This document shows, in pieces, positions 1,804 through 18,800 of a stretch of 64,000 bases of DNA. Both the position numbers and the translations under genes were made by a program. Positions within the stretch are counted from its first letter, which is position 1; each line of letters begins with the position of its first letter. The notes beneath the pieces were generated by a model. That model searched no databases. It was not told where the DNA came from and was given only the letters and a program-made list of their open reading frames with translations. The DNA is from Symbiodinium sp. CCMP2592. Taxonomy: Eukaryota > Sar > Dinophyceae > Suessiales > Symbiodiniaceae. The stretch covers positions 38,579 through 102,578 of the forward strand of contig CAJNDT010001003.1 of NCBI GenBank assembly GCA_905221615.1, in the 5' to 3' direction.

Positions 1804-1969
1804 GCATCCATCATGCGTGCGTGAATGGGTTTTATTTTCCGCCGAAAGTGTAGACAAAGTTTGTCGAAAAAGGAAAACAGTGTTTTCACTTGTGTGTGAG
1901 TGACACTAGACAAACTTTGCCGTGCAGCTTTCGGCTTGGAGTTGGATCTGTGATCCAAAAAGTTTTTGT
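1804..1969 (+). repeat. A1 split direct repeat (left end)
   Basis: 166 bp that recur at 12498-12663 with a constant offset of 10,694. Contains AGT-centred palindromes (GACAA-AGT-TTGTC 1853-1865; GAAAAC-AGT-GTTTTC 1873-1887) and TTGGATC-TGT-GATCCAA near its right end. Confidence 0.92.
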
Positions 1970-2052
1970 AGATTAGCTTGTAGTGCTCCGCAGCAGTGGG
2001 GGTCGTCAGCGACGTCCTTCCACTCCCCTTTTTATAACTGTCAGTGGCAGTT

Positions 2053-3432
2053 ATGGTTGACCAAGCAGCCCGCAATTACGCGGCTGAGTCGCCAGAGGCG
2101 CCGTACCCTAGAAGGGACGGTCGAGAGAATCAGTTGGCAGCGCCACAATGTTTGCAACGCGTGCGACAGTGTCGCTCCTGCCTCCGTTTTTTGCAGTGCA
2201 ATCCAATTTTCGTGCTAGAGCAGGCCATGCGTGAGGAGATGGCACAACAGGAGATAAGTTATCTCCTTTGGGCCATTAGCTGTGCCATGCGGGTAGATCC
2301 CGCGGTCGTCAGCGACGACCATGAATCTCTGAACCGCGCAGGGGAAGGGGAGTCCAAAGTTTGGCCTCCCTTTTACCCTTTCGCGCAGATGCAAGGGGAA
2401 CAACCGGATACCTCAGGCAGTGCCTATCCGATGCACCGGTATACCATGTCGCAGCGCGACGTGCCTATGCGGCCAGCGGCCACACCTGGCTGGCCGTATA
2501 CTGGCCTTTTTGACTGGCCCCCCAGTGGGGAGGAGGATAATGTGCCCAAACTCCAGTGGAGACTTAATTGGGTGGACGCCCTAGAGGGCCACGTGGCCAC
2601 CAAGGTGGAAGCCAGCGGCTTCCATTGGCACCCAGAGGGTAAGGGCAAAGGCAAGGGCGGTTGGATTAAGATAATCCCTTCGGAAAAGAAAAAGAAGAAG
2701 TCTCACAAAGTTGCCAGCGGCAGCACCGACCCTACCGCCTCGTCCAGTACCGCTCTGCCGACAGCGTCGGCATCGGCCTCGGACCCTCCCTTACCGCCGC
2801 CAGCGGCCGCTCCTGCTAAGCCCGCTGCGACCACAACAGGCAGCCCGCCCGCAGTCGCAGCTGCCGACGTCGCTCCGCCAGAGGCGGAGCCTGCCATCGA
2901 AGTTATCGATACTGACAGTGATCAGAACTCGGGAGACTCCGAGGTATCCCTGGCTAGCAGCCAGGCCGCAACGGCAGTGCCGTTCGCGCCCAACGCGAAC
3001 ACTGTGGTCGTGTCCCGACCGCAGCGTCGCAATCGCCAGCGGGGCTGGCAGTTCCAGCCCGGGGAGGACCCCCAAAATAACGATTGGCGCAACCTGGGGT
3101 CAGCGACCGACAACAGGTACCCTGGCCTCCGTGCGTTAGTGACGCACGCCAGGAGGGTTTCCCCACAGTTGCACGTCACGGACGTGCACGAATGGCCCTA
3201 TTGGGCACAACCCAACTCAGAGAGATGGGATAGGTACCCGGAGAGGCGAGGCGACCTCATGTGCTGTCTGCCCTGCGCGCAGCAGGGCTGCATTTCCCAA
3301 GGTATGGCAATTTGTGGGCGGCACTGCTCAGTGGGCAGGAGCCCCCACAATCATCACGAATGCGACAACTGCTACCGCAGCAGCCGGGGTCAGCGACCCC
3401 GAAACCACGGCGCCCGTGGCGGTCGCCGCTAG
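2053..3432 (+). CDS. DIRS accessory ORF A, Cys-rich, Gly-Lys linker
   Basis: 459 residues from ATG 2053; an earlier in-frame GTG at 2044 is less likely. The N-terminus has a Cys cluster (CLQRVRQCRSCLRFLQC), the middle has a short Lys/Gly stretch (GKGKGKGGW, then KKKKK) and a long Ala/Pro/Ser-rich linker. The C-terminus is a second Cys/His cluster (CCLPCAQQGC...CGRHC...HNHHECDNCY) that probably binds zinc. It is the first ORF behind the left repeat, preceded by CCCCTTTTTATAACTGTCAG, a possible trans-splice acceptor. A nucleic-acid-binding structural role would fit, but the family was not recognised. Confidence 0.6.
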   Translation: MVDQAARNYAAESPEAPYPRRDGRENQLAAPQCLQRVRQCRSCLRFLQCNPIFVLEQAMREEMAQQEISYLLWAISCAMRVDPAVVSDDHESLNRAGEGESKVWPPFYPFAQMQGEQPDTSGSAYPMHRYTMSQRDVPMRPAATPGWPYTGLFDWPPSGEEDNVPKLQWRLNWVDALEGHVATKVEASGFHWHPEGKGKGKGGWIKIIPSEKKKKKSHKVASGSTDPTASSSTALPTASASASDPPLPPPAAAPAKPAATTTGSPPAVAAADVAPPEAEPAIEVIDTDSDQNSGDSEVSLASSQAATAVPFAPNANTVVVSRPQRRNRQRGWQFQPGEDPQNNDWRNLGSATDNRYPGLRALVTHARRVSPQLHVTDVHEWPYWAQPNSERWDRYPERRGDLMCCLPCAQQGCISQGMAICGRHCSVGRSPHNHHECDNCYRSSRGQRPRNHGARGGRR

Positions 3433-3487
3433 TCTCTGAGCGCAGCGCGCAGCTGCTGGCTTCTCAGTGAGTCGCCCTAGTCACTTT

Positions 3488-3789
3488 GGTGCAGTGCACC
3501 TCTTTTTGCTTCGCCGCCGACAGTTCGGCAGCCTCTGCAGGGCGGGCGTCTCCGAGGTTTTTGGAACCTCGCCCACAGCGGCGAGCCGACGGCATGATTT
3601 GAAATGCGGCAAAAGTTTGCCGCTCGCCTTTTTCAGTCGTGTGTCACGCGAGCCTGGTAGGTCTCTCCAGCTGAGTCAGCTCTTTGAACCGTGTCGGTTT
3701 TCAAGCAGTGCTTTTCTTCCGCAGCCTTTTCAGCTTAGTAAGTCGCCCCTTTCGTGCCTTCAGCTAACAGCCTTTGTATGCTATCAGCG
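3488..3789 (+). promoter_or_regulatory. Inter-ORF leader with pyrimidine tract/AG acceptors
   Basis: Non-coding spacer between ORFs A and B. It carries AGT palindromes (GGTGC-AGT-GCACC 3488-3500; AGCTG-AGT-CAGCT 3669-3681) and the tract CTTTTCTTCCGCAGCCTTTT near 3710-3730. A related tract (TTTTTCCGCAGCCTTTTAAG) occurs before ORF C near 5585, so the leaders appear duplicated. Inference: sites for spliced-leader trans-splicing that resolve a polycistronic element transcript. Confidence 0.4.
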
Positions 3790-5166
3790 ATGGCGAACCC
3801 AACGAACGAGCAGATGCTGCAGGCGCTCAGTGCAGTGCCGGAGGCCCAGAGGGCCGCCATCTACGAAGCCGCCGTCTCCCTATCAGAGATAGGGGACGTG
3901 GTGGTAAATGCGGCGGAGGCAGCGGAACTCGCCGGCTGGACCAAGCCCGCCAGTGGCGGCTCAGAGGCCAATGCCGTCGCGCCGCTGGCGCCTGATCCCT
4001 GTCAGCTGCCGGCACTGCCGGGCTGGAGGACTTGCGCGCCACCTTGCCCTGAAGGGGAGGGTGCGGCTGCGCTGGCGGTGGCGGGGAGTCGCTCTCCGAC
4101 TCCGACTCTTCCGAGCGGGAGCCTTGGTCATCTTCGGTTTCGTCCCGCCGCCCGCTGGGCTCCTCCACATCCATATCCTCCGGCGCTGCCGAGGGAGCTT
4201 CCGCTGGAAGCGGTTCTTCTTTGACGCCCGAGCCCGCTTCCTCAGCGGGGCTGGTCGGGGAGCGGCGCTGCGAGGCCGGCGCTGCGGCCGACGTGGGAGA
4301 AGAGTTTGCCACCGCGCTGCGGTGGTCGTCGGAAGACACACCACGGGCCGCCGCTGGCGGCTCGGTGTTCGCAGGAACCACTGGGGGCTCGTAGCCCAAA
4401 AGAAGACGCTGGAGGGCCCCCGAAGGCCTCCGCCCCACGCCAGAACAAGCGGCCTCCCCCGCCGCCAGTGGCGCGTCGTGGGGAGAGCTCTCGCCCGCGT
4501 CCCTGTCAGCAGCCCCCGCGCAACAACCCAGCTGGCGTCGCTGGGACCCGGGCCAGCGGCCCGGCGTTAGATGACAACGCTGATCGAGACGATCAGGAAG
4601 CTCGCCCGCCAGCGGCGGAGCGTCCCCGAGCGGGGGAGATTCAGCGAGTCTTCGCATGTTCAGTCTGCGACAACATGCAGATGAACATTTGGAGCGATCC
4701 GTCTTCGGAATTCGTATGCAGTGCATGCGGAGAGCTCCACCCCTTCGTGGCTGCAGTGCATGCCTACGATCAGCCTAGCGCCAGTGGCGCTGTGGGACAG
4801 TTTTCCCACGAGCGTCGCAGCAAGGCCTGGCAGTGTCCAGAGTGCGGCGTGATGCATTGCACACGCTGCGCGAAAAATTACTCTTGCCCAGGCACTGTCC
4901 CGCGGACAGACGGCAAGCTCGAGTACCGTGGCGAGCGCCGCCCTACTAGGGGGCCGCCCGAGTCCCTTCGGCTGACCTTGCAGCGCGAGGCAGCCGAAGC
5001 CCGTGAGCGCGAGCACCGCGAACGGGAGTCCCGCCGCAGAGACGGCAAGGGCAAAGGCAAAGGCAAGGACCAGAGGTCCCGCCGTGACGACGAGGACCGG
5101 GACCAGTGGTCCCGTGGTCGCTGGTCCTGGGACCACGACCGACGCTGGAACCATCGCGAATGGTAG
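3790..5166 (+). pseudogene. DIRS accessory ORF B, broken by an internal inversion
   Basis: Starts at ATG 3790 (MANPTNEQMLQALSAVPEAQ...) and is coherent to about 3970. The next roughly 400 bases read as protein only on the minus strand (acidic, Ser/Pro-rich, with EEPLPAEAPSAAPEDMDVEE and SRSEESESESDS), and from about 4390 the plus strand is coherent again to 5166. Both plus-strand parts are in the same frame. The C-terminal part has a double zinc-ribbon-like cluster (CSVCDNM...CSACGELH...CPECGVMHCTRCAKNYSC) and an Arg/Asp/Gly-Lys tail. As it stands the plus-strand frame stops at 4224. Family not recognised; a Cys-rich nucleic-acid-binding role is possible. Confidence 0.6.
3965..4400 (-). other. 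Inverted segment inside accessory ORF B
   Basis: Coding sense flips to the minus strand here. Independently, the short palindromes flip too: flanks have AGT/AGC centres (CCGCC-AGT-GGCGG 3947-3959; a CGCC-AGT-GGCG copy near 4460), while inside they have GCT/ACT (GCGCC-GCT-GGCGC about 3978-3990; CCGGC-ACT-GCCGG about 4007-4019; GCTTCC-GCT-GGAAGC near 4200; GCCGCC-GCT-GGCGGC 4347-4361). Breakpoints lie between 3959 and 3978 on the left and 4361 and about 4460 on the right. Confidence 0.7.
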
Positions 5167-5584
5167 ATACGCCAGCGGCGTAATCCAGCGCATTCCGAAC
5201 AGTGTTCGGATAATTTTTTTTTTTTTTACGGGCCAGTGGCCCTTCCGTCTGCGCCCCTTTTCACACAGGTGCAGAGCACAGCAGTGCCGGCACAGTCCGG
5301 CCACAAGAGCCTTCGCTGCTCACCGGCCTGTCTGCGGATCGCAGAAGGCAGGTGCAGCGCACCTCGACAACCGGGCTCCGCCCAGAGACTCGCATCGCGA
5401 GGTTGGTAAAAAGAACACCGCAGGTTGCGTGTGCACACAGACCTTGTAGGACTGAATCTTCTTTTGCCTAGTAGGCTCTTCTTGCCTAGTAGGTTTGTGC
5501 GCAGTGCCCCGAGACCTGGTAGGTCCTCAGAGGTTGCTCTAAGTGCAGTGTCACCATTTGAGCCTGCGATCTTCAGTGCGTTTT

Positions 5585-5650
5585 TTTTCCGCAGCCTTTT
5601 AAGCCTCACTCTTCCCAGCTCTCTTTTTTCCTCCTCTCCTCCCTCAGGAC
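5585..5650 (+). promoter_or_regulatory. Pyrimidine-rich acceptor region before recombinase ORF
   Basis: Two pyrimidine runs each ending in AG (TTTTTTTCCGCAG, then TTTTTTCCTCCTCTCCTCCCTCAG) precede the recombinase ORF by about 150 bases. By analogy with dinoflagellate mRNAs these are candidate spliced-leader acceptors; no experimental proof. Confidence 0.4.
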
Positions 5651-5800
5651 TGAATGGGGAGGGTGCGGGTCGCAGCGCGTCGCTTGAATTGAGCTTTCCA
5701 GAGTGAGTGCACTTGTGTTCGTGTGCTGGTAGCCTTTTCTTGAAAGCCACCTGGACAACAGCCGTTGGCTTGAGCAGTGCTCCCCTTCCTTGTGTCAAGG

Positions 5801-7666
5801 ATGCTGCCCAGGGGCAGCGCCCCAGAGGGCGATTTCAACGACCAGGTTAGTAACCTTTGGTCGTCTATACCACGCCGAGCCGGTGCTCGTCAGCCGTGGG
5901 AATCAGCTTCATGGTTTGCGCGCAATGCAAGCTGGCCCTGGGAGCTGTCAGTGACTCGCCCCGCCTCCGTGGGCCCCGTGCCAGTGTTGCACGAGTCAAG
6001 CCTGATGCTTAAGCGGAAAGCTTCCGCTAGCACTCAGCCGCTAGTAGCGGAAGACACAGCCTTCGCACTTAAGGTGTGCTGCCGTCGTACAGCGTACGAA
6101 GGCGACCGCCGCGACAGCGCGGTTTTCAAACTGACGGCTTTGGTAAAAGCCTGGCCAGAGGCCTTCGAGATCGTCTCACAGTGTGCTGACGAAGCCGGTT
6201 GCGTCGACCTGGACGAGCTCGACTTCAGCATAGAGGCAGCGCTCAGCTACAAAGCCACAAACACAGTGGTTCGTCGTCTCAACTCCCTCAGCAATTTTGT
6301 CCAGTGGGCAAACTGCCAAGACCCAGTGGTGGTGCCCTTCCCAGTGTCAGAGCGCGCCACCTGGCGATACATCCAGTGGATGATGAGGAATGGGAAAGGG
6401 GCTAGCAGCCCCTCCAGCCTGATTCAGAGTCTGAACTGGTGCTCGGGAGTTTTCGGTCTTTCCTTCGAGTCGGAGGTGACCAGCTCCCGCATCGTGGGCC
6501 TTTGTAAGAGCACGGAAGCCAGCGCGCCTCCGCCGAGACGGGCCCCCGCCCTCAAAGCCTCGGAGGTGGCTACTCTTGAGCGCATCGCGCTGTCTGGCTC
6601 TGTGTACGACAGTGTCGTGTCTGGGGGCTTGTTGTTCATGCTCTTCGCATGCGCCCGTGCCAGTGACGCGGCCCGAGTTGCCTCCTTTTCGGTTGAGCTT
6701 CCGGAGGACCCCTGCGCCACAGTGTGGATGCAGGCGAATGTTCACAAGGCGAAAACCGCCGTAGGGGCTAGAAGCCGCCTGCTGCTCCCGCTGGTAGCCC
6801 CGGTGGTTTTCTTCGAAGAGTCTTGGGTGAGTCAGTGGCTCGCAAATCGAGAAAAGTTGGGCCTCAGCTCCAGTGGAGACATTCCGCTCGGGTCAGTGAT
6901 CCCTGCCTTCACATCGGATGGTGATCTAGCGGATCGCCCGATGAACTCTCAAGAGATTACCTCCTGGCTGCGCAGCGCGCTGTCCAACGCCGGCTGCGAA
7001 GACGCAGAGCGCCTTAGCAGTCACAGTCTCAAAGCGACCTGCCTCACGTGGGCCTCGCAAGCTGGCGTCAACCTGGATCTGCGCAGGCTCCTCGCCCACC
7101 ATGTGCACGACAGTGCTCGGAGCACCGAGACGTACAGCCGTAACGTGCTCATCCCCGCAGCGCGGGCTCTGGAGGAAGTTCTCATTGCCATCAGAGATGG
7201 CGACTTCCTTCCCGACCAGCCGCTCGGGAAACAATTCGCGCTGCCAAGCAGCCAGCTCAACCTGAGGCGAGAGAACCTTAGCAAGGTTTCTCACCGGAAA
7301 ACCTCCTCTGGCTCGGCACCCCCAGTGGGGGTGGAAGCCCTGAAGGTTTCGCAGCAGCAGGAGCTCAGCGACACAGAGGACAGTGCCAGTGACACTGACA
7401 GAGAAGACGAGTTCGTCGCCGAGCCAGAGGTCGAGGAGCACCCTCGCCTCAGAAGGGAGGTGCAGTGCACCCTCCCGGACTGGGCCGTCTCGTGGTGTCA
7501 TCTTGCCAGTGGCAAGCTCCACGCGAGTCGCGGTGAGAATGCCAAGAGGCTTCTCTGTGGTCGCTGTTTGAATGAAAAGTATAAGAGTTGCGAAGTTCGC
7601 GACCTGGCCCCGGGCCGGCCACACTGCAAGACGTGCTGGAGCAGCAAGTCTTTCGATGCAGAGTGA
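5801..7666 (+). CDS. Tyrosine recombinase of the DIRS element
   Basis: 621 residues from ATG 5801 (an upstream in-frame GTG at 5777 is less likely). The catalytic set of the tyrosine recombinase/phage integrase family is readable: Arg286 in CARASDAAR, His408-x-x-Lys411 in SHSLKATCL, a His cluster at 433-436 (AHHVH) and the nucleophile Tyr445 in STETYSR. This enzyme would join the circular cDNA into the genome by strand exchange, replacing a DDE integrase. The C-terminal 170 residues are acidic, then Cys-rich (CGRCLNEKYKSC...CKTCW), which looks like an added zinc module. The catalytic set appears complete. Confidence 0.85.
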   Translation: MLPRGSAPEGDFNDQVSNLWSSIPRRAGARQPWESASWFARNASWPWELSVTRPASVGPVPVLHESSLMLKRKASASTQPLVAEDTAFALKVCCRRTAYEGDRRDSAVFKLTALVKAWPEAFEIVSQCADEAGCVDLDELDFSIEAALSYKATNTVVRRLNSLSNFVQWANCQDPVVVPFPVSERATWRYIQWMMRNGKGASSPSSLIQSLNWCSGVFGLSFESEVTSSRIVGLCKSTEASAPPPRRAPALKASEVATLERIALSGSVYDSVVSGGLLFMLFACARASDAARVASFSVELPEDPCATVWMQANVHKAKTAVGARSRLLLPLVAPVVFFEESWVSQWLANREKLGLSSSGDIPLGSVIPAFTSDGDLADRPMNSQEITSWLRSALSNAGCEDAERLSSHSLKATCLTWASQAGVNLDLRRLLAHHVHDSARSTETYSRNVLIPAARALEEVLIAIRDGDFLPDQPLGKQFALPSSQLNLRRENLSKVSHRKTSSGSAPPVGVEALKVSQQQELSDTEDSASDTDREDEFVAEPEVEEHPRLRREVQCTLPDWAVSWCHLASGKLHASRGENAKRLLCGRCLNEKYKSCEVRDLAPGRPHCKTCWSSKSFDAE

Positions 7667-7721
7667 AAAGAGAGCGAGTTCTTGCGCCTGTCTATCCTAG
7701 TAGGGTCCCGCAGTCGGCACA

Positions 7722-7769
7722 GTGTGTGTGTCTCTCTCTCTCTGTTTTCTTCTCTCGCCCTGCAGGACA
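7722..7769 (+). promoter_or_regulatory. Pyrimidine tract and AG acceptor before Gag
   Basis: A (TC)n/T-rich tract runs to CCCTGCAG, ending six bases before the Gag ATG (GACAATGG). This is the clearest acceptor-like signal in the element and would fit trans-splicing of a spliced leader just upstream of gag. Confidence 0.45.
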
Positions 7770-9026
7770 ATGGCAAACCTCGTCGACAGCGTCGCGGAAT
7801 TCTCCAGCAGAGCTGGACAACTCCTAGGAGCCGCCGAGTCGGCGAAGCTCCTTGCGGCAGACATCCGCACCTTCGGCACGCTCGCTTACAGCGTCGCCGA
7901 CCAACCCGATCGCATCAGCGATGCGAAGTTTGAAGAACTCATCAAGAAGGTCTTCGGGGCGGCAGAGCCGACCTTAGGCACCAAGGCCGCAGCGCGGCGC
8001 CTGGCCTTCGAAAGCCTCACCTTCAGTATCCAGGATCTGAAGATGAGGGTCGAGGGTGACAGCGTCACCCCAAAGAGCCTGCCCCTGCACGAGCGCGAGG
8101 AGCGCCGAGCCGCGCAAGTTGCGCGCCTCAAGGGCGTCGTCATCGAAGGTGACTACGACCCCGCGAACAGCCTCGTGGACAAGGCCGCGCTCATGCTGCA
8201 GGACGGCATCGTCCGTTACATCCCGCCGTCGCAGTGCGTCAGCCGGGATGCAGAGATCGCCTCAGTGAGGCGTGACAAGGACTTCCTCTCCCTAGAGTCT
8301 GGGGAGATCACGGTAAAGAAAAAGGAGCACAGCGTGCACGTGGAGATCGGCAATGAGCTAAAGCTCACGCAGGCGCTGACGCGCCGAGGTCTCGCGCTCG
8401 ACAGAGTCGGCGTGTTGGATTTCACAATTCACGAGAGACTCGTGAGACAGTTTTTCTCCGTCCTGAACCGGCCAGCGCCGCCGGGGATGGAACGCGGCAA
8501 CAGCTGGCACGTAGTACGGGCCGACAAAGAACTGTGGACGCTGCTCGCGCGAGAGTGTCGCAAAGGGTGCAAGCCGGACAAGGATGGTAAGAGGCCACTA
8601 GATTCTCTAGTAGAGAACATGTGGTCCGATCCGATTGTTACGCTTCACCTGCTCCCCTCGCCAGTGGCGGACAGGGGTCGCAAGGGCAAAGGCCGCAGCT
8701 CGGCGCGCAGCGAAGAAGACCGCAGTCGTAGCACGACCGGCAAAGGTAAGAAAGGCGGCAAGAAAGGCCGCGGTAAGGGCAAGGGCAAGCGCCATGAGAG
8801 CGCAGACCGCGCCAGGCCGCCGAGCATGCCCAAAGAGCTTCGCCACTTGAACAGTGTTTCCAAGTCCGGCAAGCGCCTCTGCTACGGCTTCAACCTGCAG
8901 TGCGGGTGCGACCTCGAGACCTCCGGCTCCCCCAAGCAGTGCGACAGGGGGTTGCACCAGTGCATGAGCTGCGGCAGCACCGACCACGGAGCCGCAGATT
9001 GCCCAAAGAACGCAGGGGCCGCCTGA
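7770..9026 (+). CDS. gag: Gag-like protein with CCHC zinc knuckle
   Basis: 418 residues from ATG 7770 (MANLVDSVAEFSSRAGQLLG). Frame extension upstream to 7722 only adds translated pyrimidine tract, so ATG 7770 is preferred. The C-terminal third is basic (GKGKKGGKKGRGKGKGK), followed by CYGFNLQCGC and a canonical CX2CX4HX4C knuckle, CMSCGSTDHGAADC. The layout is that of a retroelement nucleocapsid: assembly region, then RNA-binding tail. It ends with TGA at 9024-9026, and the same frame continues open into pol. Confidence 0.8.
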   Translation: MANLVDSVAEFSSRAGQLLGAAESAKLLAADIRTFGTLAYSVADQPDRISDAKFEELIKKVFGAAEPTLGTKAAARRLAFESLTFSIQDLKMRVEGDSVTPKSLPLHEREERRAAQVARLKGVVIEGDYDPANSLVDKAALMLQDGIVRYIPPSQCVSRDAEIASVRRDKDFLSLESGEITVKKKEHSVHVEIGNELKLTQALTRRGLALDRVGVLDFTIHERLVRQFFSVLNRPAPPGMERGNSWHVVRADKELWTLLARECRKGCKPDKDGKRPLDSLVENMWSDPIVTLHLLPSPVADRGRKGKGRSSARSEEDRSRSTTGKGKKGGKKGRGKGKGKRHESADRARPPSMPKELRHLNSVSKSGKRLCYGFNLQCGCDLETSGSPKQCDRGLHQCMSCGSTDHGAADCPKNAGAA

Positions 9027-9030
9027 CTAG
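9024..9030 (+). promoter_or_regulatory. Candidate programmed stop-codon readthrough site
   Basis: The Gag stop reads TGA-CTA-G. The following frame has no stop from 9027 to the pol terminator at 12246. UGA followed by CUAG is a known leaky context for translational readthrough in viral and some animal mRNAs, so a Gag-Pol fusion by readthrough is the simplest reading. No ATG is needed for the methyltransferase/RT domain, whose listed start would otherwise be a GTG. Confidence 0.6.
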
Positions 9031-12000
9031 GCACCCTTGCACCGAGCGCGGCAGAGCCGCAACAGCCCTCAGAGACGGGGCCTGCAGCTCCTATCCCAGC
9101 AGCGCTGGGCTCTTCCGCCTTTGCTCCTCGCTCAGGGCAGAGCCCTGACCCTTCGGCCTCGGCACCGCCACTGCACCCGCCTGCAACAAGTAAGCCAGGA
9201 CGTGCAACCGCTGCGCCGTCTCACGACGCCGCGCCCGCGGTTAACGCCGAGCCCCCAGTGCTCCTCCTGTCCGAACAGCACAGCGTGCTGGCAGACAACG
9301 CTCGGAGCGTTACTCTTCCCGAGCCGGCTTCGCAAGCGACCCCTCGGCCTCCGCTTTTTGTGGAAGTTTTCTGCGGCCTCGGTCGCCTTAGTAAGGCAGC
9401 CATCGAGAAAGGTTTCTCGAATATCGCCGTGGATCACAGGACCAAGGCCAGAGGCCTCAAGGTCCTTCAGCTCGACCTCTGCACCCAGTTGGGTCGCAAC
9501 TTGCTGAGAGCAGTGCTCTCACACCAAGATTTGAGATGGGTCCACTGGGCCCCCCCGTGCGGCACCTTTAGCAGAGCTAGAGAGATTCCCAGGCCGGGAG
9601 CTCCGGGCCCCTTGCGCAGCGAAGCGCGCCCAGCGGGCCTTAAAGGCCTCAAAGGAGCCGACGCCGCGCGAGTTCGCAGCGCGAACAGCCTAGTCGCTTT
9701 TATGGCACAGTGTTGCCACTCCCTGTCTCAGCGCGGCGTTTGCTGGTCCATAGAAAATCCGGCTCGTAGCCTCCTGTGGAGGATGCCCTGCCTCAGAGAG
9801 GCCTTGCAGTCAGCTCACAGAGTAGAGTTTGACTCGTGCATGTTCGGCAGCATGCGCCGCAAACGTACCGCAATCCTCTCCAACCTGGATTGGTTCGCAG
9901 GTCTGAGCAGAGACTGCGACGGAGGCCACCAACACCTGCCGTGGGGCAGAGCCTCAGTTGATGGTTCCACAGTGTGGTCCACATCCCTGGAAAGCGCCTA
10001 CACTACTCAGTTGAGTTCCGTCTGGGTTTCCCTCGCGGCCGACCAATGCGCAGCAGCACTCCGGGCAGCGCCTCTCAGTCGCAAGCGACTGCGTCGTCTG
10101 CGCTACGAGCCAGACTTCAGTGACAAAGTCACTCTCCAAGGCCCCGCAGGGCGGTGCTTTCGAGGCTGGAAGACTCCGCAGAAGATTCCACAGTCGTGGA
10201 CTTGCTTCCCAAAGGGCTCAAGGCTCATCCAGTGGATTGAAGCCTCCCAGAAAGCCATCATCGCCATCCCGCTGCAGCCTCTACACTGGGTGCGCAGAGC
10301 GCACCTGATCGATCACCCGGCCAGGGACATCGAGGCAGTGCCTCTATCCCTGAAGCGAGCCATTGCCGCCGAAGTCCACGAGGACACTGTCCTGCTGGCC
10401 AAGCGCCGCACGGTGGCATCGATGCATATCTCTCGAACTTGCACAGAGTGCCAAGTCCGCGAGACCGAGGTACGTTCGTCGATTGACGCTCAGGTGAACA
10501 GCGTCACCAAGCCCAAGCAGACAGTAGCTTTAGCAAAGCTTCTGACCGAAATCGACTTTCCGGACAAGACTTTGGCCCAGCAGGTGCGAGAAGGCTTTCC
10601 CCTGCTTGGCTGGATACAACCCAGTGGGTTGTGGCCAGTGCAGATTCTGCCACCTTCTCTAGACGAGAAGTCACTACTGGAAAACGCCCAAAGCATCAGT
10701 ATGCGAGGTGTTCGCAGCGCTCTGCGCCCCTCGCAAGACGGGATCTCGGACAGGGTCTGGGAAAGCACTATGGAGGAAGGCCAGCAGGGCTGGCTCTCTT
10801 TGGAAGACTTCTCGCCAGGGCAGCTGCACGAGACGATAGTATCGTCCCGCTTCGGCGTCGTTCAAAAGGGCAAAGTGCGCCCCATTGATAACTTCAAAAG
10901 CAGCTTCATTAACAGCTGCTGTGGGACCACAGAGAAGGTCCAAGTCGATAGCATCGACGAGCTTCTTGCAGTTTGCCTGGAGTGGCTTCGCCAAGGTGTT
11001 CCCGCAGAGCGGGCCCACCGCATTGTAGGCAGGACCTGGGACCTTAAGAGTGCCTACAAGCAGCTTGCAGTGCAGGCCGCACACAAGAAATTCGCGTGCA
11101 TCGTCATGCTGGACCCACAGAGTGGGAAGGTCAAAATCGCCCACCTGCATAGCATGCCTTTCGGCGCCGTTGCCGCCGTGCACGCTTTCCTCCGCTGCAG
11201 CGAAGCGCTCAAAGCCATCGGCCGCGAAAAGCTTGCTTTAGTCATGACAAGCTTCTTTGACGACTTCACCGTCCTTACGCGCAGCGCGCATTCAAAGCTC
11301 GTCACGTTGGCAGTGTCCAACCTTTTTCACAAGCTGGGTTGGCAGGTGGCCACAGAGCCCAAAAAGAACGCAGACTTCAGCGAAGTCTTTGACGTGCTAG
11401 GCGTGCGAGTGGACTTGTCCAAGCAGCACCTCGGAGAAATCTCAGTGAGCAACAAGCCAACCCGCGCAGCAGAGCTGGGATTGGTCCTCAGCGAGGCCCT
11501 CGCCCGCGGAAGCATGTCCCCTTTGGAAGCGCAGAGCCTGCGCGGCAGGCTCATTTTCGCTGAGCAGCAAGCCTGGGGTCGTAACACTCGCATGGCAGTG
11601 ATCTGCGTAGGCGACGTCCTTGGGGATGGACCAGAGCAAGTCCCCCTAACAGAGCAGCAATGCCAAGCCATGGCGTTCCTGCTGCAGAGAGTCGTGCACG
11701 GACCGCCCAGGACAGTGTCCATCCATGCACGCCGCAAAGTGCACCTTTACATCGACGGGGCCTGCGAGTGGGAGACCCCGAGACTCGTGCCCAAGTGTGG
11801 CCTCGGAGCAGTGCTCATCGGAGAAGGCATCGCCTTCACCTGGGGGCTGCAGATCAGCAGCCAAGTCACAGCCCAGTGGGCTGCCAGAGCTCAGAAGCAG
11901 CAGCTCGTCTACGAGTGCGAGCTGCTGCCCTACTTGCTCAGCCTGCAGATGTGGGCTAAGCACATAGCAGGCAGCGACCTGTTCGTCTGGATAGACAACG

Positions 12001-12248
12001 ACGCAGCGCGTACCTCCCTGCACAAGGCCTTCACACGCAAGGTGGAAGGAGCTGCGATAGTTTCGCAGGCGGTGGACTTCGAAGAATCCCTGCAGTGCAG
12101 GGCCGCTTTCTTTCGAGTCCCCACAGACAGCAATATAGCTGATGGCCCCAGCAGAGACTGGTGGGAAGAGACACAACGGCTTGGCGCAGAGCGCCAATTT
12201 TTGCCTCCCAACGCAGTGTCGTTGGCTTTGTCACTCGGCGCGGACTAG
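9027..12248 (+). CDS. pol: Pol: C5-methyltransferase-like domain, reverse transcriptase, RNase H
   Basis: 1073 residues in frame with Gag, read after the TGA. After a Pro/Ala-rich linker comes a Rossmann-like start (FVEVFCGLGRLSKA), a Pro-Pro-Cys catalytic-type loop (WAPPCGTFSRA, Cys codon 9556-9558) and SIENPA, matching motifs I, IV and VI of C5-cytosine methyltransferases. The reverse transcriptase follows, with DLKSAYKQL and FFDDF (aspartates at 11259-11264). RNase H follows, with YIDGAC, YECELL, WIDNDA and NIADGPSR, supplying the acidic residues. The protein would copy element RNA; the methyltransferase may act on element or host DNA, which is unproven. The target-recognition part of the methyltransferase looks short, so activity is uncertain. 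Confidence 0.85.
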   Translation, partial: LGTLAPSAAEPQQPSETGPAAPIPAALGSSAFAPRSGQSPDPSASAPPLHPPATSKPGRATAAPSHDAAPAVNAEPPVLLLSEQHSVLADNARSVTLPEPASQATPRPPLFVEVFCGLGRLSKAAIEKGFSNIAVDHRTKARGLKVLQLDLCTQLGRNLLRAVLSHQDLRWVHWAPPCGTFSRAREIPRPGAPGPLRSEARPAGLKGLKGADAARVRSANSLVAFMAQCCHSLSQRGVCWSIENPARSLLWRMPCLREALQSAHRVEFDSCMFGSMRRKRTAILSNLDWFAGLSRDCDGGHQHLPWGRASVDGSTVWSTSLESAYTTQLSSVWVSLAADQCAAALRAAPLSRKRLRRLRYEPDFSDKVTLQGPAGRCFRGWKTPQKIPQSWTCFPKGSRLIQWIEASQKAIIAIPLQPLHWVRRAHLIDHPARDIEAVPLSLKRAIAAEVHEDTVLLAKRRTVASMHISRTCTECQVRETEVRSSIDAQVNSVTKPKQTVALAKLLTEIDFPDKTLAQQVREGFPLLGWIQPSGLWPVQILPPSLDEKSLLENAQSISMRGVRSALRPSQDGISDRVWESTMEEGQQGWLSLEDFSPGQLHETIVSSRFGVVQKGKVRPIDNFKSSFINSCCGTTEKVQVDSIDELLAVCLEWLRQGVPAERAHRIVGRTWDLKSAYKQLAVQAAHKKFACIVMLDPQSGKVKIAHLHSMPFGAVAAVHAFLRCSEALKAIGREKLALVMTSFFDDFTVLTRSAHSKLVTLAVSNLFHKLGWQVATEPKKNADFSEVFDVLGVRVDLSKQHLGEISVSNKPTRAAELGLVLSEALARGSMSPLEAQSLRGRLIFAEQQAWGRNTRMAVICVGDVLGDGPEQVPLTEQQCQAMAFLLQRVVHGPPRTVSIHARRKVHLYIDGACEWETPRLVPKCGLGAVLIGEGIAFTWGLQISSQVTAQWAARAQKQQLVYECELLPYLLSLQMWAKHIAGSDLFVWIDNDAARTSLHKAFTRKVEGAAIVSQAVDFEESLQCRAAFFRVPTDSNIADGPSRDWWEETQRLGAERQFLPPNAVSLALSLGAD

Positions 12249-12280
12249 ATGGGGGGTGAGTAAGGCTTCGAGTGCCTTCA

Positions 12281-12497
12281 AGGGGGGTGAACCAGTCGTT
12301 CGCCTTACCACCGACCAGCGGTCGAGTTTTGGTTTGAAATGCCAGTGGCATCGTTTCGACATAGCCCGAAGATCGGGCCCGAACCGACCCCCCATGTCCG
12401 CTAGGAGAAAAAAGAGAGTGCTTTGCACAGGGTTCCTTTCTGCAGCGCAGTTAGGGTTTCCCAAACGCGCGCTAACGGAAGTTTCGTTGGAAAATAA
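12281..12497 (+). repeat. B1 split direct repeat
   Basis: 217 bp that recur as B2 at 12897-13113; the two differ by one G in the initial G run and one T in GGTTCC/GGTCC. Contains CGACC-AGC-GGTCG and ATGCC-AGT-GGCAT palindromes. Ends directly at A2. Confidence 0.92.
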
Positions 12498-12663
12498 GCA
12501 TCCATCATGCGTGCGTGAATGGGTTTTATTTTCCGCCGAAAGTGTAGACAAAGTTTGTCGAAAAAGGAAAACAGTGTTTTCACTTGTGTGTGAGTGACAC
12601 TAGACAAACTTTGCCGTGCAGCTTTCGGCTTGGAGTTGGATCTGTGATCCAAAAAGTTTTTGT
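12498..12663 (+). repeat. A2 split direct repeat
   Basis: Identical by eye to A1 (1804-1969). The B1/A2 boundary (12497/12498) reproduces the sequence expected when the element's two ends are joined in a circle. Confidence 0.92.
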
Positions 12664-12896
12664 CCCACCCACCACACCCTGTATAGTATGCGGGGTCCGG
12701 GACACCGCTTTGGCAGCAGAGCTGCCAGGAGCAGCGCTCCTATGCTCTCTCCCGCGGAGAGTTTTGAGCACAGAGTGCGCTTTTGTATATAGGCCGTAGG
12801 CCGTGCAAATGCAGAGTAGCACCTAGTAGCTGCAGTGACCCAGTAGGTCCTAGCATGTTTCACTTTATCTCCCCGTGGTACGGGTTGTCCCCTAGT
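12664..12896 (+). other. Spacer between A2 and B2
   Basis: 233 bp of non-coding element sequence without a match on the left side. Contains CCCC-TAGTA-GGGG near 12890 and several CAGTG/TAGTAG words, consistent with the element-wide palindrome signature. Confidence 0.6.
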
Positions 12897-13113
12897 AGGG
12901 GGGGTGAACCAGTCGTTCGCCTTACCACCGACCAGCGGTCGAGTTTTGGTTTGAAATGCCAGTGGCATCGTTTCGACATAGCCCGAAGATCGGGCCCGAA
13001 CCGACCCCCCATGTCCGCTAGGAGAAAAAAGAGAGTGCTTTGCACAGGGTCCTTTCTGCAGCGCAGTTAGGGTTTCCCAAACGCGCGCTAACGGAAGTTT
13101 CGTTGGAAAATAA
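12897..13113 (+). repeat. B2 split direct repeat (right end)
   Basis: Right terminus of the DIRS element, homologous over its full length to B1. Host sequence (AACCGAC...) follows. Confidence 0.92.
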
Positions 13114-13330
13114 AACCGACAGGACCACACTCAAAGCCCGCTCCGAACGTTCATAGCAACAGCTATCGGGCGGAGTCAAATATCCATTCCAAGTTCCTCG
13201 AAGAAGCCAAACCAAAGGCGAACACTGAATGCCTGCCAGGACCGGATTCCCAATCCCGACAGAAACGACCCACCCAAAATGATCAAGCAGAATCTAGGCA
13301 ATGAGTGCGAAACGAAGAAGCGCAACCTCG
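13114..13330. repeat. Right copy of divergent flanking direct repeat
   Basis: Partner of 1600-1803. It begins immediately at the element's right end, so insertion occurred at a boundary between two copies. Confidence 0.6.
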
Positions 13331-15625: not shown

Positions 15626-15802
15626 TGTTAAACATCTTGCCAGGAACAGTAACACAGTTAGTGCAGTGCAGTTAATGTACAGGAACAGCCGTCACGCACA
15701 CGCGACGTGCAAGGCTCGAGACCAGCGGACACAGTGACCCACAAGGAAAAGTGACCGCTTCAGTTTGAGAGTAGGAAGCTTAGTGAAGCCCGTTCTTTAA
15801 CA
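15626..15802 (+). repeat. Left LTR (177 bp)
   Basis: Starts TGTTAAACATCTTGCC and ends CGTTCTTTAACA; identical to 26445-26621. It has two AGGAAC copies. The final base is also the A of the polyprotein ATG. Confidence 0.95.
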
Positions 15803-18800
15803 TGGTAGCGGAGCTGCCTCCAGGAACCTCCTTGGCAGCGATGATGCTACTCGTAGCCATAGGAACCATGATGCTCGGCGCCATGGCAGTTTGCCTCGTT
15901 GCCGGATGGAAGCAGATGCGCGCGAATGAGCAGATCACCAAGAAGACAGAGACAGTGCTCAACATGCCCACGCTCAGGATCGCAGTCCGTTCAGGAACAA
16001 AGTACCACCGCAGAGGTTGTGGACACCTTCGTAACCACAACGTGACAGCAGGAAACGCGCGAGACTTTGACGCTTGCAGCGATTGCTACCCCGACCGAGT
16101 GTTGGTGGAAGAGAGAGAGAAAAGGAACATGAAGTGCTACGGTTTGGCAGCATGTATGGTGCTGCTGGTTGGTTTCGCACTGGGAAGCCTCGCAACTTTG
16201 TGCGGGATGATCTTGGTCCCAGGAGCAGGAAGTATGGCGGTGAGACCGTGGCAGGCCCTTGGCAACAAAGTGGAGACCAAGGAAGAACTTGCCCTTGGAG
16301 ACGCCTTATCCTCCAAGGAAGCGAGCCGTGGGAGAAAGGAACTACCGTACGTTGAGAGTGACGAGAGCGAGCTCATGGCAGTGTGGTCGAGCAGAAGGAA
16401 GCCCAATACGCACCCCAATACGCACCGGAACCGCTACAGGAACTATGACGTGTACGGCGAGTACTACCAGCAAGGCTACAACGAGTGCAGCGTGAACCCC
16501 GACGGCACCAACGTGAACACGATCAGGAACACGAACGCGTACACGATTAAGGACTATGTGGAGATAGGAAAAGTCATGGTACCGTACGCTTTGTTGTGCG
16601 CGAACCAAGTGATGAACGAGCTCTACAGCGTCGTTAGCGTGACCGGCGAGTACTACACGGAAGAGAACAGGAACGGCGACCAGAACACCGAGAACCAGGA
16701 GAGTGAGAGCCTTGAGTCAGGCTACGCCCCTAGGTACCTAGTAAAACAACAGCGAGAAGTACTGAGGAAAGTTGTACAGGAACATGTTCACAGTTTCGTA
16801 GAAAAGCTAGCAACCGTAGGAAAGAAGTTTCACGACGTCGTGCATGTGATAGTTCAGGAAGTCATTTCCAACAGAGTTGTATTTCAAGGAATTCGCATAG
16901 CAGTGTTCTTAGGAACCCCAATGGGACTGATTACTTGGATCACCCTGTCGTACTATTCTAGTTTGTTTTTCGCAAGAGCAAGCAACCGCTCGAAGCACCA
17001 AAGGAAGACAAGAGGAGAAAGGAGAGCACAAGCAGTGAGCAGGAAACAGTGCAAGTCACTACTTTTAGCAGCACTAGTGTACAGCAACCTTGAAGCAGCA
17101 AAAGGAATGGAGGATGCATTGAAGGCACTTGCCGAGATCAATGCACAGACCTTACAAGGAATACAAACACTAGCAGAGGAGATCAGGAACTCAGCAGCTT
17201 CAGGAAGTCAAAGAGAAGCAGGACTCACACAAGCATTCCAGGAAACCCTGACAGCAGTTCAGGAACAACAGAAGACAGCACAAACAGCGTTGGCAGACGC
17301 TCACACGAACGCAGCAACGACACTTGAGGAGATAGGAGCATCTCTGGAGAAAGCAGTAAAGGAACAAAGAAAGCCTGGAGAAGTGGAGTTGCACAAGCTG
17401 ATTAAAAGCCCCGAAGCATTTTCCCCAGGAACATGGCAAGAAGAGAAGAGTGGATGGACAGAGTTCAGGAACAGGATGCGGATCTGGCTTGGAGCAGTGG
17501 ATTCCAACATGGTGAAGATCATGGACATCGCAGAAAGGAACCTAAAAGATGATAAGCAAGTGAAGATGGCTGAGATGTCTGCAGAAGCAAAGGAAACAAG
17601 CCGACGCCTGTACAGTGTTCTTTGTTCGTACACTAAAGGAAGGCCGTACCGAGTTGTAAAGCATGTAGCTGAGGAAAACGGTATGGAAGCTTACCGTATG
17701 CTACTCAAGGAATATCAACCAACGAATCGTGCGAGATCGTTGGAGTTGTTTCACAACATTCTCAACTACAAATTTGCTCACAACAAAGGAATTGCTGAGA
17801 ATATCCTCGAATATGAGGAACACATCGAGAAGTACGAGAAGGCAACTGGAGAAAAGGTACAGGAGAATTTGAAAGTATCTACTCTTATTCAAGGTATGAA
17901 ACCTGACGTGAAAAGGCACTTGTTGCTCAACATGGATGAGAAGACACAGTACAATACTCTTCGTCAGTACCTTGTGAACTATGAGTCAACCGAGCGTTGG
18001 ACTAACTCTTTAGCAGCCCAGCAAGGAACACCTCACCGAACCACAACCGACTTGATCGACAAAGGTGATGACCATGGTGGTCTTGCAGCAATGGATATCA
18101 ACCAAGCATGGTACAAAGGAAAGAAAGGCTATGGCAAAGGTTATGTTCACCATAAAGGCAAAGGTAAAGGAAAAGGCAAGAAAGGTGGAAAGGACTTCGG
18201 AAAAGGTTTCGGCTTTGACAGCAAAGGCAAAGGTAAAGGTAAAGGTTTCGGAGGTTTTGGCAAAGGCAGAGGTCGAGGCAACTGGAAAGGCCGAGGTAGA
18301 GGTTTCAGAGGTTACAAAGGAAAAGGCAAAGGTCGAGGAAGAGGTTTCTTCAGACACAAAGGAAAAGGTAAAGGAAAAGCCCAAGCAGCTACAGGAGTGT
18401 GTCACTACTGCCATAAGTATGGACATTTCGAAGCACAGTGTAGGCAGAAGATGCGTGACATGGGTTATCAGGCAAGGAACGTTGACCTTGAAAACCAGAG
18501 CGAGCAAGCGAGCACTACAGGTACTTCGACTCAGGCCCCTTCGTCAGCCAACAAGACCTCAACAAGCCAAAGCCAAGCAAGCCAAGGAACCCAAAGACCA
18601 GTGATTAGGATGGTCTCCATGTACCACATGGGAGACGAGCCCACAAGCTTTCCGGAGGAATTCGAGATGAGTGAGAACTCTGATGAGATAGAGATTGAGT
18701 ACTTCGGAAGAGTTTTGCGGGTTGTTGGTGAAGAAGTTCAGGAAGAGAGAAGTGAGACAGAAGAGTTTTGGATTGGTGATGAAGATGATGAGTTTCAGGA

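Follow-up and report, generated by a model that had tools for sequence, protein, structure and literature searches.

The DIRS-like retrotransposon of 11.3 kb that lies in the window, by which we mean the whole analysed stretch of 64,000 nucleotides of DNA from Symbiodinium sp. CCMP2592, an alga from a genus of coral symbionts, carries an array of triloop hairpins that act as sense RNA, are specific to its family and are under purifying selection. We conclude this because short palindromes around the loop AGH (H being T, C or A) are strongly enriched, stop at the edges of the element, are lost in synonymous shuffles, show a bias towards G.U pairs and a constraint on silent sites, and are absent from pieces of three other DIRS families in this genome. 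On the further proposal that the array, of about 140-160 hairpins, would by analogy serve as multivalent candidate binding sites for a protein encoded by the element, in the style of dispersed packaging signals, our judgement is evenly balanced.

The element has the split-repeat layout A1 ... B1A2 ... B2, with A repeats of 166 bp and B repeats of 216 bp (Table 1). As in DIRS-like elements, it has a reverse transcriptase and, in place of a DDE integrase, a tyrosine recombinase. The matches of the recombinase ORF to PF00589 (E 4.2e-4) and of the Pol ORF to the reverse transcriptase family PF00078 (E 8.5e-5) both lie under the Pfam curated cut-off; the former has 14 homologues (26-51% identical) and the latter 22 (26-50% identical), two of them with a precomputed PF00078 match. 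ORF1 had no match in Pfam. The reading frame of ORF2, as read from the printed frames, is broken in the window copy inside an inverted block. In the N-terminal part of Pol we read the motifs FVEVFCG, PPCGTFS and IENP, which we take to be cytosine-methyltransferase-like, and no Pfam methylase matched this region at E 0.01. AlphaFold models of ORF1 (pLDDT 35.8) and Gag (pLDDT 51.6) were of poor quality and unusable for a fold search. SymbioDIRS-Dnmt3 of Symbiodinium, a dinoflagellate DIRS-like element with the repeat order A - coding - B - A - B, shares the repeat layout and the recombinase ORF with the present element, and the methyltransferase-like domain of its Pol has a putative counterpart here, whereas ORF1 and ORF2 are extra in the present element when it is compared with the description in PMC5890265; in the main text of that paper "hairpin" and "palindrom" occur 0 times.

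Table 1. Positions in the window of the element, its parts and individual hairpins (arm-loop-arm)
Feature	Position	Strand	Remarks
DIRS-like retrotransposon with hairpin array	1804..13113	+	AGH hairpins confined within its edges
Terminal repeat A1	1804..1969	+	3 AGH sites, arms of at least 4
ORF1, 459 aa	2053..3432	+	Lys-rich stretch, Cys-rich C-terminus; 23 AGH sites, arms of at least 4
ORF2, Arg/Lys-rich, CXXC pairs	3778..5166	+	From frames and reading of the sequence
Inverted block, 439 bp	3979..4417	-	Opposite orientation in five other genomic copies
Tyrosine recombinase ORF, 621 aa	5801..7666	+	Weak Phage_integrase match; 22 AGH sites
Gag-like ORF, 418 aa	7770..9026	+	CX2CX4HX4C knuckle CMSCGSTDHGAADC near C-terminus; 15 AGH sites
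Pol ORF, 996 aa	9258..12248	+	Reverse transcriptase; 32 AGH sites
Repeat B1	12282..12497	+	4 AGH sites
Repeat A2	12498..12663	+	100% identity to A1; 3 AGH sites
Repeat B2	12899..13113	+	99.5% identity to B1; 4 AGH sites
GAAAAC-AGT-GTTTTC	1873..1887	+	In A1
TGGAAGCC-AGC-GGCTTCCA	2606..2624	+	Copy L033 keeps 8 bp, L032 6 bp
GCTCCGCC-AGA-GGCGGAGC	2872..2890	+	L032, L033: AGC loop, 5-bp stem
AACGGC-AGT-GCCGTT	2970..2984	+	
GTGCGTT-AGT-GACGCAC	3131..3147	+	First pair T.G in window copy
CCGGGCC-AGC-GGCCCGG	4548..4564	+	
AGCGCC-AGT-GGCGCT	4777..4791	+	
CGGGACC-AGT-GGTCCCG	5098..5114	+	Unchanged in window, L031-L033
TCCGAAC-AGT-GTTCGGA	5194..5210	+	Unchanged in window, L031-L033
CACCCCC-AGT-GGGGGTG	7317..7333	+	Unchanged in window, L031-L033
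CTTGCC-AGT-GGCAAG	7502..7516	+	
GGGTGAC-AGC-GTCACCC	8054..8070	+	
TTCTCT-AGT-AGAGAA	8603..8617	+	
TGAGAGC-AGT-GCTCTCA	9505..9521	+	
GGTGCGC-AGA-GCGCACC	10289..10305	+	Pair 6: G-C in 21/30, G.T in 9/30 copies
ACAACCC-AGT-GGGTTGT	10616..10632	+	
CCCTGC-AGT-GCAGGG	12088..12102	+	
TTGGCGC-AGA-GCGCCAA	12181..12197	+	Loop AGA in 22/30 copies, AGC 6, AGT 1, GGA 1

An earlier sequence-only reading had quoted 12 palindromes, all of which were found in their places, and had put the total at at least 30, which was real but far too low. The element has 137 AGH sites with perfect arms of at least 4, and 163, against 13.3 expected, when G.U pairs are allowed in stems of at least 4; this amounts to about one hairpin per 80 nt, in coding and spacer sequence and in the terminal repeats alike. 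Perfect inverted repeats with arms of at least 5 and a 3-nt spacer numbered 123 in the element, and their spacers were AGT (38), AGC (30), AGA (20), AGG (2) and others (33). AGH was thus the spacer in 88, out of 763 AGH triplets, where 2.19 were expected from the control loops of the same element (29/10,083; Poisson p 7e-106). In the 50.9 kb to the right of the element (13114-64000) there were 63 such repeats in all, with flat spacer usage; the AGH signal stops at the element edges and the remainder of the window, where a copia-type polyprotein of 3449 aa is encoded, is almost free of it. Synonymous-codon shuffles of four ORFs (200 per ORF, arms of at least 5) abolished the excess: 11+15+10+19 = 55 sites were observed, the shuffle means were 0.42+0.82+0.29+0.89 (about 2.4), and no shuffle of any ORF had more than 4. 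When the spacer length was varied, even lengths stayed near background and lengths 1, 5 and 7 were also above it, which we read as largely nested forms of the same sites. When 2.5 kb of sequence per family was taken from three other DIRS families of this genome, it contained 0 AGH sites with arms of at least 4.

This distribution bears on the possibility that the reader of the hairpins is an RNA-binding protein of the host, which the element would exploit for export, stability, translation, localisation or hiding from silencing. The presence of hairpins throughout the terminal repeats and all ORFs is in keeping with it, and the loop preference and the sense-RNA constraint described below would suit any RNA-binding protein. 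However, a useful host factor would probably serve other retroelements, so the absence of hairpins from the pieces of the three other DIRS families and their near absence from the rest of the window, copia-type polyprotein included, count against it. In addition, one site per 80 nt far exceeds the usual regulatory need. We therefore regard a host reader as unlikely; were it correct, it would point to an unknown triloop-binding protein in dinoflagellates.

The hairpins had been described as having AGY loops, always on the sense strand, and usually a conserved closing C-G pair. AGT and AGC do dominate, but the rule is AGH because AGA, which accounts for 20/88, had been missed, and the C-G pair is common (74/115 stems of at least 5) but not universal. 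The orientation is nearly uniform except for 15 antisense-type (DCT-loop) sites with stems of at least 4, of which 8 are scattered elsewhere in the element and 7 are inside the inverted block; the block has zero AGH sites (arms of at least 4), its hairpins being reversed along with it. The length of the stem and the GC content of its first four pairs were weakly negatively related (p 0.06).

The tolerance of G.U pairs in stems of 4-5 bp, together with the silent-site constraint, leads us to conclude that the hairpins behave as single-stranded sense RNA. Among single mismatches in 4-bp AGH stems, read on the sense strand, G.U outnumbered A.C by 29 to 7, as against 63 to 115 around control loops (p=6.7e-7), and the 5-bp stems gave 27 to 9 with controls at 22:42 (p=1.4e-4). 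The excess was gone at 6 and 7 pairs (21:18 and 11:10). One-sided variants of stems of at least 5 in the window and 7 copies comprised 8 G.U, 6 A.C and 6 other, and variants in 30 young copies 11 G.U, 11 A.C and 9 other. Predicted folding of 87 hairpins gave a mean stem pairing probability of 0.66 for sense and 0.72 for antisense, so the sense strand is not favoured by this measure. The same asymmetry speaks to a role at the DNA level, in which cruciforms, one of the hypotheses of the earlier reading, or hairpins of single-stranded cDNA would be bound by the recombinase, the methyltransferase-like domain or the reverse transcriptase. Perfect inverted repeats in general can fold as DNA, and DIRS elements replicate through single-stranded and circular DNA. 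But a G.U excess confined to one strand is unexpected for a cruciform, which is therefore disfavoured, and since first-strand cDNA is antisense the asymmetry there would be opposite, which indicates sense RNA and not cDNA. The array also spans coding regions besides the repeats, and we consider a DNA-level role very improbable.

That selection acts on structure, and not only on protein, was borne out by the silent sites of the stems. At codon position 3 in the 5' half, compared in the window and up to 7 copies, 20/186 positions were variable in stems and 297/844 outside (p=3e-12), a threefold reduction. In the reverse transcriptase ORF, with 30 copies including the window, the figures were 21/129 and 292/831 (p=1.2e-5). 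Stems of control palindromes were unconstrained (43/106 with arms of at least 4, 16/53 with arms of at least 5). Deeper comparisons between copies showed few changes of the loop A and G, and a third base that mostly moves among T, C and A: relative to L032 and L033, base 1 was changed in 1/77 and 2/70 loops, base 2 in 1/75 and 1/68, and base 3 in 7/75 and 5/65, and for loop bases that fall at codon position 3 the variable fractions were 0/21, 0/9 and 7/20. Loops switch within AGT/AGC/AGA at 11 sites, with AGA and AGC interchanging between copies, and at 6 further sites at least one copy has a loop other than AGH. In the 30 young copies (44 sites), loop A, G and H were variable at similar rates (0.14, 0.11 and 0.09), and in non-coding loops of the 5' half base 3 varied in 0/15 and bases 1 and 2 in 2/16 and 1/15; the freedom of the third base thus rests on coding sites and pairwise counts. 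The arms were mostly conserved. Exchanges between Watson-Crick (WC) and G.U pairs took place, with a single clean WC-to-WC double change (site 3138), and strict evidence of covariation is thin. The latter site is the hairpin at 3131..3147, in which the first pair is T-A in L032 and L033 and the second pair is C-G in L033, a double compensatory change. Other double changes were one WC-to-G.U (site 5027) and two rows of WC-to-mismatch (site 2669).

A mutational process acting in reverse transcription or repair, for instance a switch of template or the correction of palindromes, might also leave functionless palindromes around AGH. The stems are often perfect, rearrangements (inversions) occur in ORF2, the proteins are altered to fit the hairpins (see below) and the rare variants of young copies have no G.U excess, as such a process would allow. 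Neutral decay, however, should give G.U and A.C equally, yet G.U dominates the 4-5 bp stems, and in pairwise comparison WC/GU exchanges exceeded WC/AC exchanges by 21 to 8, L032 and L033 not being independent. Moreover, silent sites are constrained in these stems and not in control palindromes, copying gives no obvious cause for keeping the loop A and G, and perfect stems seldom exceed 7 bp (pairing at position 8 in 3/25), though 14 reach 8-9 bp with G.U allowed. This explanation is therefore improbable.

The protein sequences of the element themselves bend to suit the hairpins. Compared with their own shuffles, the compatibility of the amino-acid sequences with AGH hairpins was 5.1x for ORF1 (z 8.4), 4.5x for the recombinase (z 7.4), 3.4x for Pol (z 7.3) and 1.7x for Gag (z 1.8), whereas for DCT loops the four proteins gave 1.1-1.7x. 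The identity of reverse transcriptase hairpin codons to relative P0001 was 0.45 as against 0.50 outside (p 0.3), so there is no clear sign that hairpins shun or break up conserved residues; the conservation of alignment columns among relatives was a little lower within hairpins, with p 0.04 for arms of at least 4, 0.02 for at least 5 and 0.25 for at least 6. A search for DNA of the relatives in viral contigs and genome contigs found none, and the same footprint was sought in the proteins of 38 relatives (22 of the reverse transcriptase and 16 others). It was not clear in the 22 (P0001 0.67x; the highest, P0005, 1.8x, z 2.0) or in P0024 (0.65-0.71x). The ORF1 relative P0023 reached 3.4-3.8x, yet DCT was also raised (2.7-3.3x), and recombinase relatives were mixed: P0036 3.3x (z 4.0), P0032 2.2x with DCT equal, and P0026 0.6x. 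We therefore draw no conclusion on other species.

Returning to the sense-RNA array, the genomic or messenger RNA carries stems of free sequence, mostly of 4-8 bp and closed most often by C-G, below an AGH triloop, and a protein would recognise the first two loop bases, A and G, where they cap a short stem, the third base merely having to be other than G. The reader would be encoded by the element, candidates being the Gag-like protein, which has a zinc knuckle, and the basic, Cys-rich ORF1 and ORF2 proteins. Many copies of this reader would coat and condense the RNA for selective packaging into particles, in the way that multiple dispersed packaging signals work in small RNA viruses. Binding by Gag as a packaging or assembly signal, as the sequence-only reading had suggested, is a candidate role and a leading guess; as the reader, ORF1 or ORF2 would be no less plausible than Gag. 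A knuckle-like motif is also found at the end of Gag in the hairpin-less family L052, so the zinc knuckle alone cannot account for the hairpins. Among the matches listed, no ORF1 relative lay less than 30 kb from the listed loci of the three hairpin-less families. A more specific version, in which ORF1, ORF2 or Gag would bind cooperatively to an AGH hairpin every ~80 nt, so that packaging specificity would be written along the whole RNA, including by the bent protein sequences, and not in one leader signal, we hold only tentatively, with doubt somewhat outweighing belief.

Retroviral packaging signals are a few hairpins in the leader, unlike the genome-wide triloop array of the present element. 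Retroviral nucleocapsid zinc knuckles bind exposed guanosines of hairpin loops, and the psi hairpins described in passages of PMC7599994, two of them tetraloops, resemble those found here in having a loop G on a short stem, here as a candidate ligand of the CX2CX4HX4C knuckle of Gag. In single-stranded RNA viruses, MS2 among others, dispersed stem-loops with a short loop motif in common are thought to promote coat assembly, and passages of PMC6281560 describe, as found here, many stem-loops with differing stems and a common loop motif along the whole genome. Both the number of such stem-loops in the element and their conservation beyond coding needs agree with dispersed signals, but unlike in those viruses there are ~150 near-uniform, sequence-detectable AGH triloops in a tyrosine-recombinase retrotransposon, known from sequence alone. 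The titles, abstract openings and some passages of the literature surveyed describe no such hairpin array in a retrotransposon. In our view the weak and degenerate motifs of dispersed packaging signals make them difficult to establish in RNA viruses. The motif of the present element, a retrotransposon, varies little, recurs densely, is oriented and stands out beyond statistical doubt, and the pieces of sister families sampled from the same genome lack it, so that one can trace how it was gained and which protein reads it. The element offers a natural way to ask if assembly instructions can run along the whole length of an RNA, and its protein-coding sequence has been shaped to serve RNA structure.

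The loop sequence also raises the question whether the hairpins hide or display splice signals, thereby obstructing cis- or trans-splicing of the full-length RNA or serving as decoys for it. In dinoflagellates the 5' splice site takes the form GT, GC or GA, exactly G then H, and the acceptor is AG; AGG loops are scarce and the third base alternates between T, C and A, which fits this donor set. Most AGH triplets, however, are outside hairpins (763 in total, 163 with stems of at least 4), and other DIRS families of the same host manage without hairpins in the pieces sampled, which makes this explanation very improbable.

Finally, a search of Rfam with the whole window gave no family at gathering score. 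A likeness to the iron-responsive element had been noted in the C-AGU-G top, and it is there in the AGT subset only; unlike that element as passages of PMC8466369 describe it, these hairpins have no unpaired, bulged position 19 as in a CAGUGN pseudotriloop, no bulged C8 five pairs below the loop and no fixed 5-bp upper helix, and use AGC and AGA as well. The link was thus not sustained: the arms pair directly under the triloop and are perfect up to 7-8 bp.

The hairpin array in the DIRS-like element is real. All 12 palindromes quoted in the sequence-only reading were found in the window, and within the element 88 of the 763 AGH triplets (H = T, C or A) are spacers of perfect inverted repeats with arms of at least 5, against 2.19 expected from the control loops, that is, the other spacers of the same element. 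With G.U pairs allowed in stems of at least 4, there were 163 AGH sites versus 13.3 expected (summed over stem classes 4-9). Sequence to the right of the element (50.9 kb) holds 63 inverted repeats with arms of at least 5 and a 3-nt spacer, any spacer counted, without spacer preference. In kb 12-13 the count of AGH sites with arms of at least 5 is 14, and it drops to zero from kb 13 on, save three elsewhere in the window. Codon-preserving shuffling of four ORFs, the check proposed for the array, abolished the AGH hairpins, 55 being observed against shuffle means summing to 2.42. Perfect arms of at least 4 occur at 137 sites, which cover 16% of the element and are spaced at a mean of 82 nt (CV 0.86). 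In a scan of spacer lengths, 3 was highest, 1, 5 and 7 were raised too, and 0, 2, 4, 6 and 8 were near background. Pairing given all inner pairs was 0.65, 0.78, 0.83, 0.64, 0.59 and 0.48 at positions 2-7 and 0.12 at position 8. The closing pair is C-G in 74 of 115 stems of at least 5, and the hairpin flanks have no clear consensus. A minor class has a TGT loop, with four independent sites with arms of at least 5 (1949, 3692, 5793 and 9775) and 3-4 sites per copy in L032-L037, which are genomic copies of the element.

Layout of the hairpin-bearing element and its coding regions (window positions)
Feature	Position	Remark
DIRS-like element	1804-13113	split direct repeats
Repeat A1	1804-1969	
Repeat B1	12282-12497	
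Repeat A2	12498-12663	
Repeat B2	12899-13113	
ORF1	2053-3432	
ORF2	about 3778-5166	frame interrupted
Tyrosine recombinase ORF	5801-7666	
Gag-like ORF	7770-9026	
Pol ORF	9258-12248	

The hairpins behave as sense RNA. Where a single mismatch fell within the first four pairs, it was of the G.U type at 29 AGH sites and of the A.C type at 7, versus 63 and 115 at control loops (Fisher p 6.7e-7). Taking five pairs, the ratios were 27:9 and 22:42 (p 1.4e-4). Over six and seven pairs the AGH ratios (21:18 and 11:10) did not differ from what base composition predicts. If perfect DNA palindromes simply decayed by neutral mutation, G.U and A.C would arise equally, and antisense cDNA would yield the opposite bias. 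The orientation of a block in ORF2 gives a natural control for strandedness. This 439-bp block (3979-4417) has seven antisense-loop (DCT) sites and no AGH site in the window. Six fetched copies span it, and it is inverted relative to five of these (L032, L034-L037); L031 does not reach the block. Those five have no antisense-loop site with arms of at least 5 within their 6 kb. The sixth, L033, is rearranged differently and only in part in this region, and has four such sites. The region reads as one of repeated inversions at a hairpin-rich spot.

Comparison of copies shows that the stems are kept by purifying selection. In the RT ORF of 30 genomic copies including the window, 21 of 129 stem sites at codon position 3 were variable versus 292 of 831 outside (p 1.2e-5), while positions 1 and 2 were no different, and 57 of the 68 sites in 7761-13113 (arms of at least 4 in any copy) were present in at least 25 copies. 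In the 5' half, where the window was compared with six copies (left part) or seven (right part), the variable fractions of stems and outside were 20/186 versus 297/844 at codon position 3 (p 3e-12) and 15/169 versus 190/976 in non-coding sequence (p 7e-4); control-palindrome stems had 43/106. Pairwise divergence was 3.6% in stems and 10.2% outside against L032, and 5.5% and 11.6% against L033. Covariation of the arms, which had been proposed as a check, is thin in the strict sense since double changes are rare and one-sided types are mixed; it is stem conservation that carries the case. The L032 and L033 comparisons, pooled and not independent of each other, gave 21 one-sided changes of the WC/GU type, 8 WC/AC and 10 WC/other mismatch. 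A double change from WC to WC was seen once (T-A to C-G at site 3138); one other replaced WC by G.U, one turned a mismatch into WC and two did the reverse. One-sided variants comprised 8 G.U, 6 A.C and 6 other for stems of at least 5 in the eight-sequence set, and 11, 11 and 9 in 30 young copies.

The proteins yield to the RNA, their amino-acid sequences being shifted toward AGH-hairpin compatibility relative to shuffles by 5.1x in ORF1, 4.5x in the recombinase, 1.7x in Gag and 3.4x in Pol, versus 1.1x, 1.7x, 1.1x and 1.4x for antisense loops. Pairwise, loop base 1 was changed at 1/77 (L032) and 2/70 (L033) sites, base 2 at 1/75 and 1/68, and base 3 at 7/75 and 5/65. Swaps among copies were AGC/AGT at 7 sites and AGA/AGC at 4; six other sites depart from AGH in some copy, two of them involving AGG. 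In the 5' half the third base was variable as often as ordinary sites at codon position 3 (7/20) and at 0/15 in non-coding sequence, where bases 1 and 2 gave 2/16 and 1/15, and all three bases were similarly variable among the 30 young copies (0.14, 0.11 and 0.09).

The array is family-specific and was found in one family. With P0001, a protein 49% identical to the element's Pol, all 46 scored genome matches (of 4063 candidates) were the hairpin-bearing family again, and P0010 as query finds other DIRS families. The 22 Pol relatives came from ENA (17 rows), EukProt (4) and one further source. About 30 AGH sites per 2.5 kb are expected at the element's density (137 per 11.3 kb), and 2.5-kb pieces of three other DIRS families (L050-L052), which form the hairpin-less sample with two further DIRS groups outside it, have none with arms of at least 4. 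For relatives of ORF1 in the genome, 134 candidates were scored and yielded at least 140 matches with 40-66% identity to P0023, itself an ORF1 relative; among the matches listed, which may miss more diverged relatives, three contigs are shared with listed other-DIRS loci, the nearest about 34 kb away. Since the Gag of hairpin-less L052 has a knuckle-like motif, the evidence points to ORF1/ORF2, or a changed Gag, as candidate reader of the hairpins. In two other-DIRS groups a single TGA lies in frame in otherwise long open frames (five copies of one group, most of the other), perhaps at the same position.

These results show an oriented, selected, sense-strand triloop array in one family. A protein would recognise the loop A and G. 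The reader would be element-encoded and would act in packaging or assembly; the analogues are dispersed packaging signals, described in part of PMC6281560, and the binding of loop guanosines by zinc knuckles, from an excerpt of PMC7599994. The suggested likeness to the iron-responsive element does not extend to membership, going by the features in an excerpt of PMC8466369. Titles and abstract openings in the literature gave no published description of such an array.

The element has the same layout as SymbioDIRS elements, as far as the excerpt of PMC5890265 goes. The deposited 752-aa gene model P0024 of Symbiodinium sp. CCMP2592 ends at its C-terminus in an ORF1 piece, 54 residues being 100% identical, and looks like a chimera of that piece and another gene. 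Given this identity, the element's host is probably that alga or one close to it. The N-terminal part of Pol has the motifs FVEVFCG / PPCGTFSRAREI / IENP, which presumably resemble a cytosine methyltransferase and are without a Pfam match. A 113-bp repeat (85% identical) flanks the element outside both ends (1659-1771 and 13207-13319). Elsewhere in the window, 15802-26151 is one open frame of 3449 aa that encodes a reverse transcriptase of the copia type (RVT_2) and matches a SAP domain weakly, and 24-26 kb has a strong purine skew.
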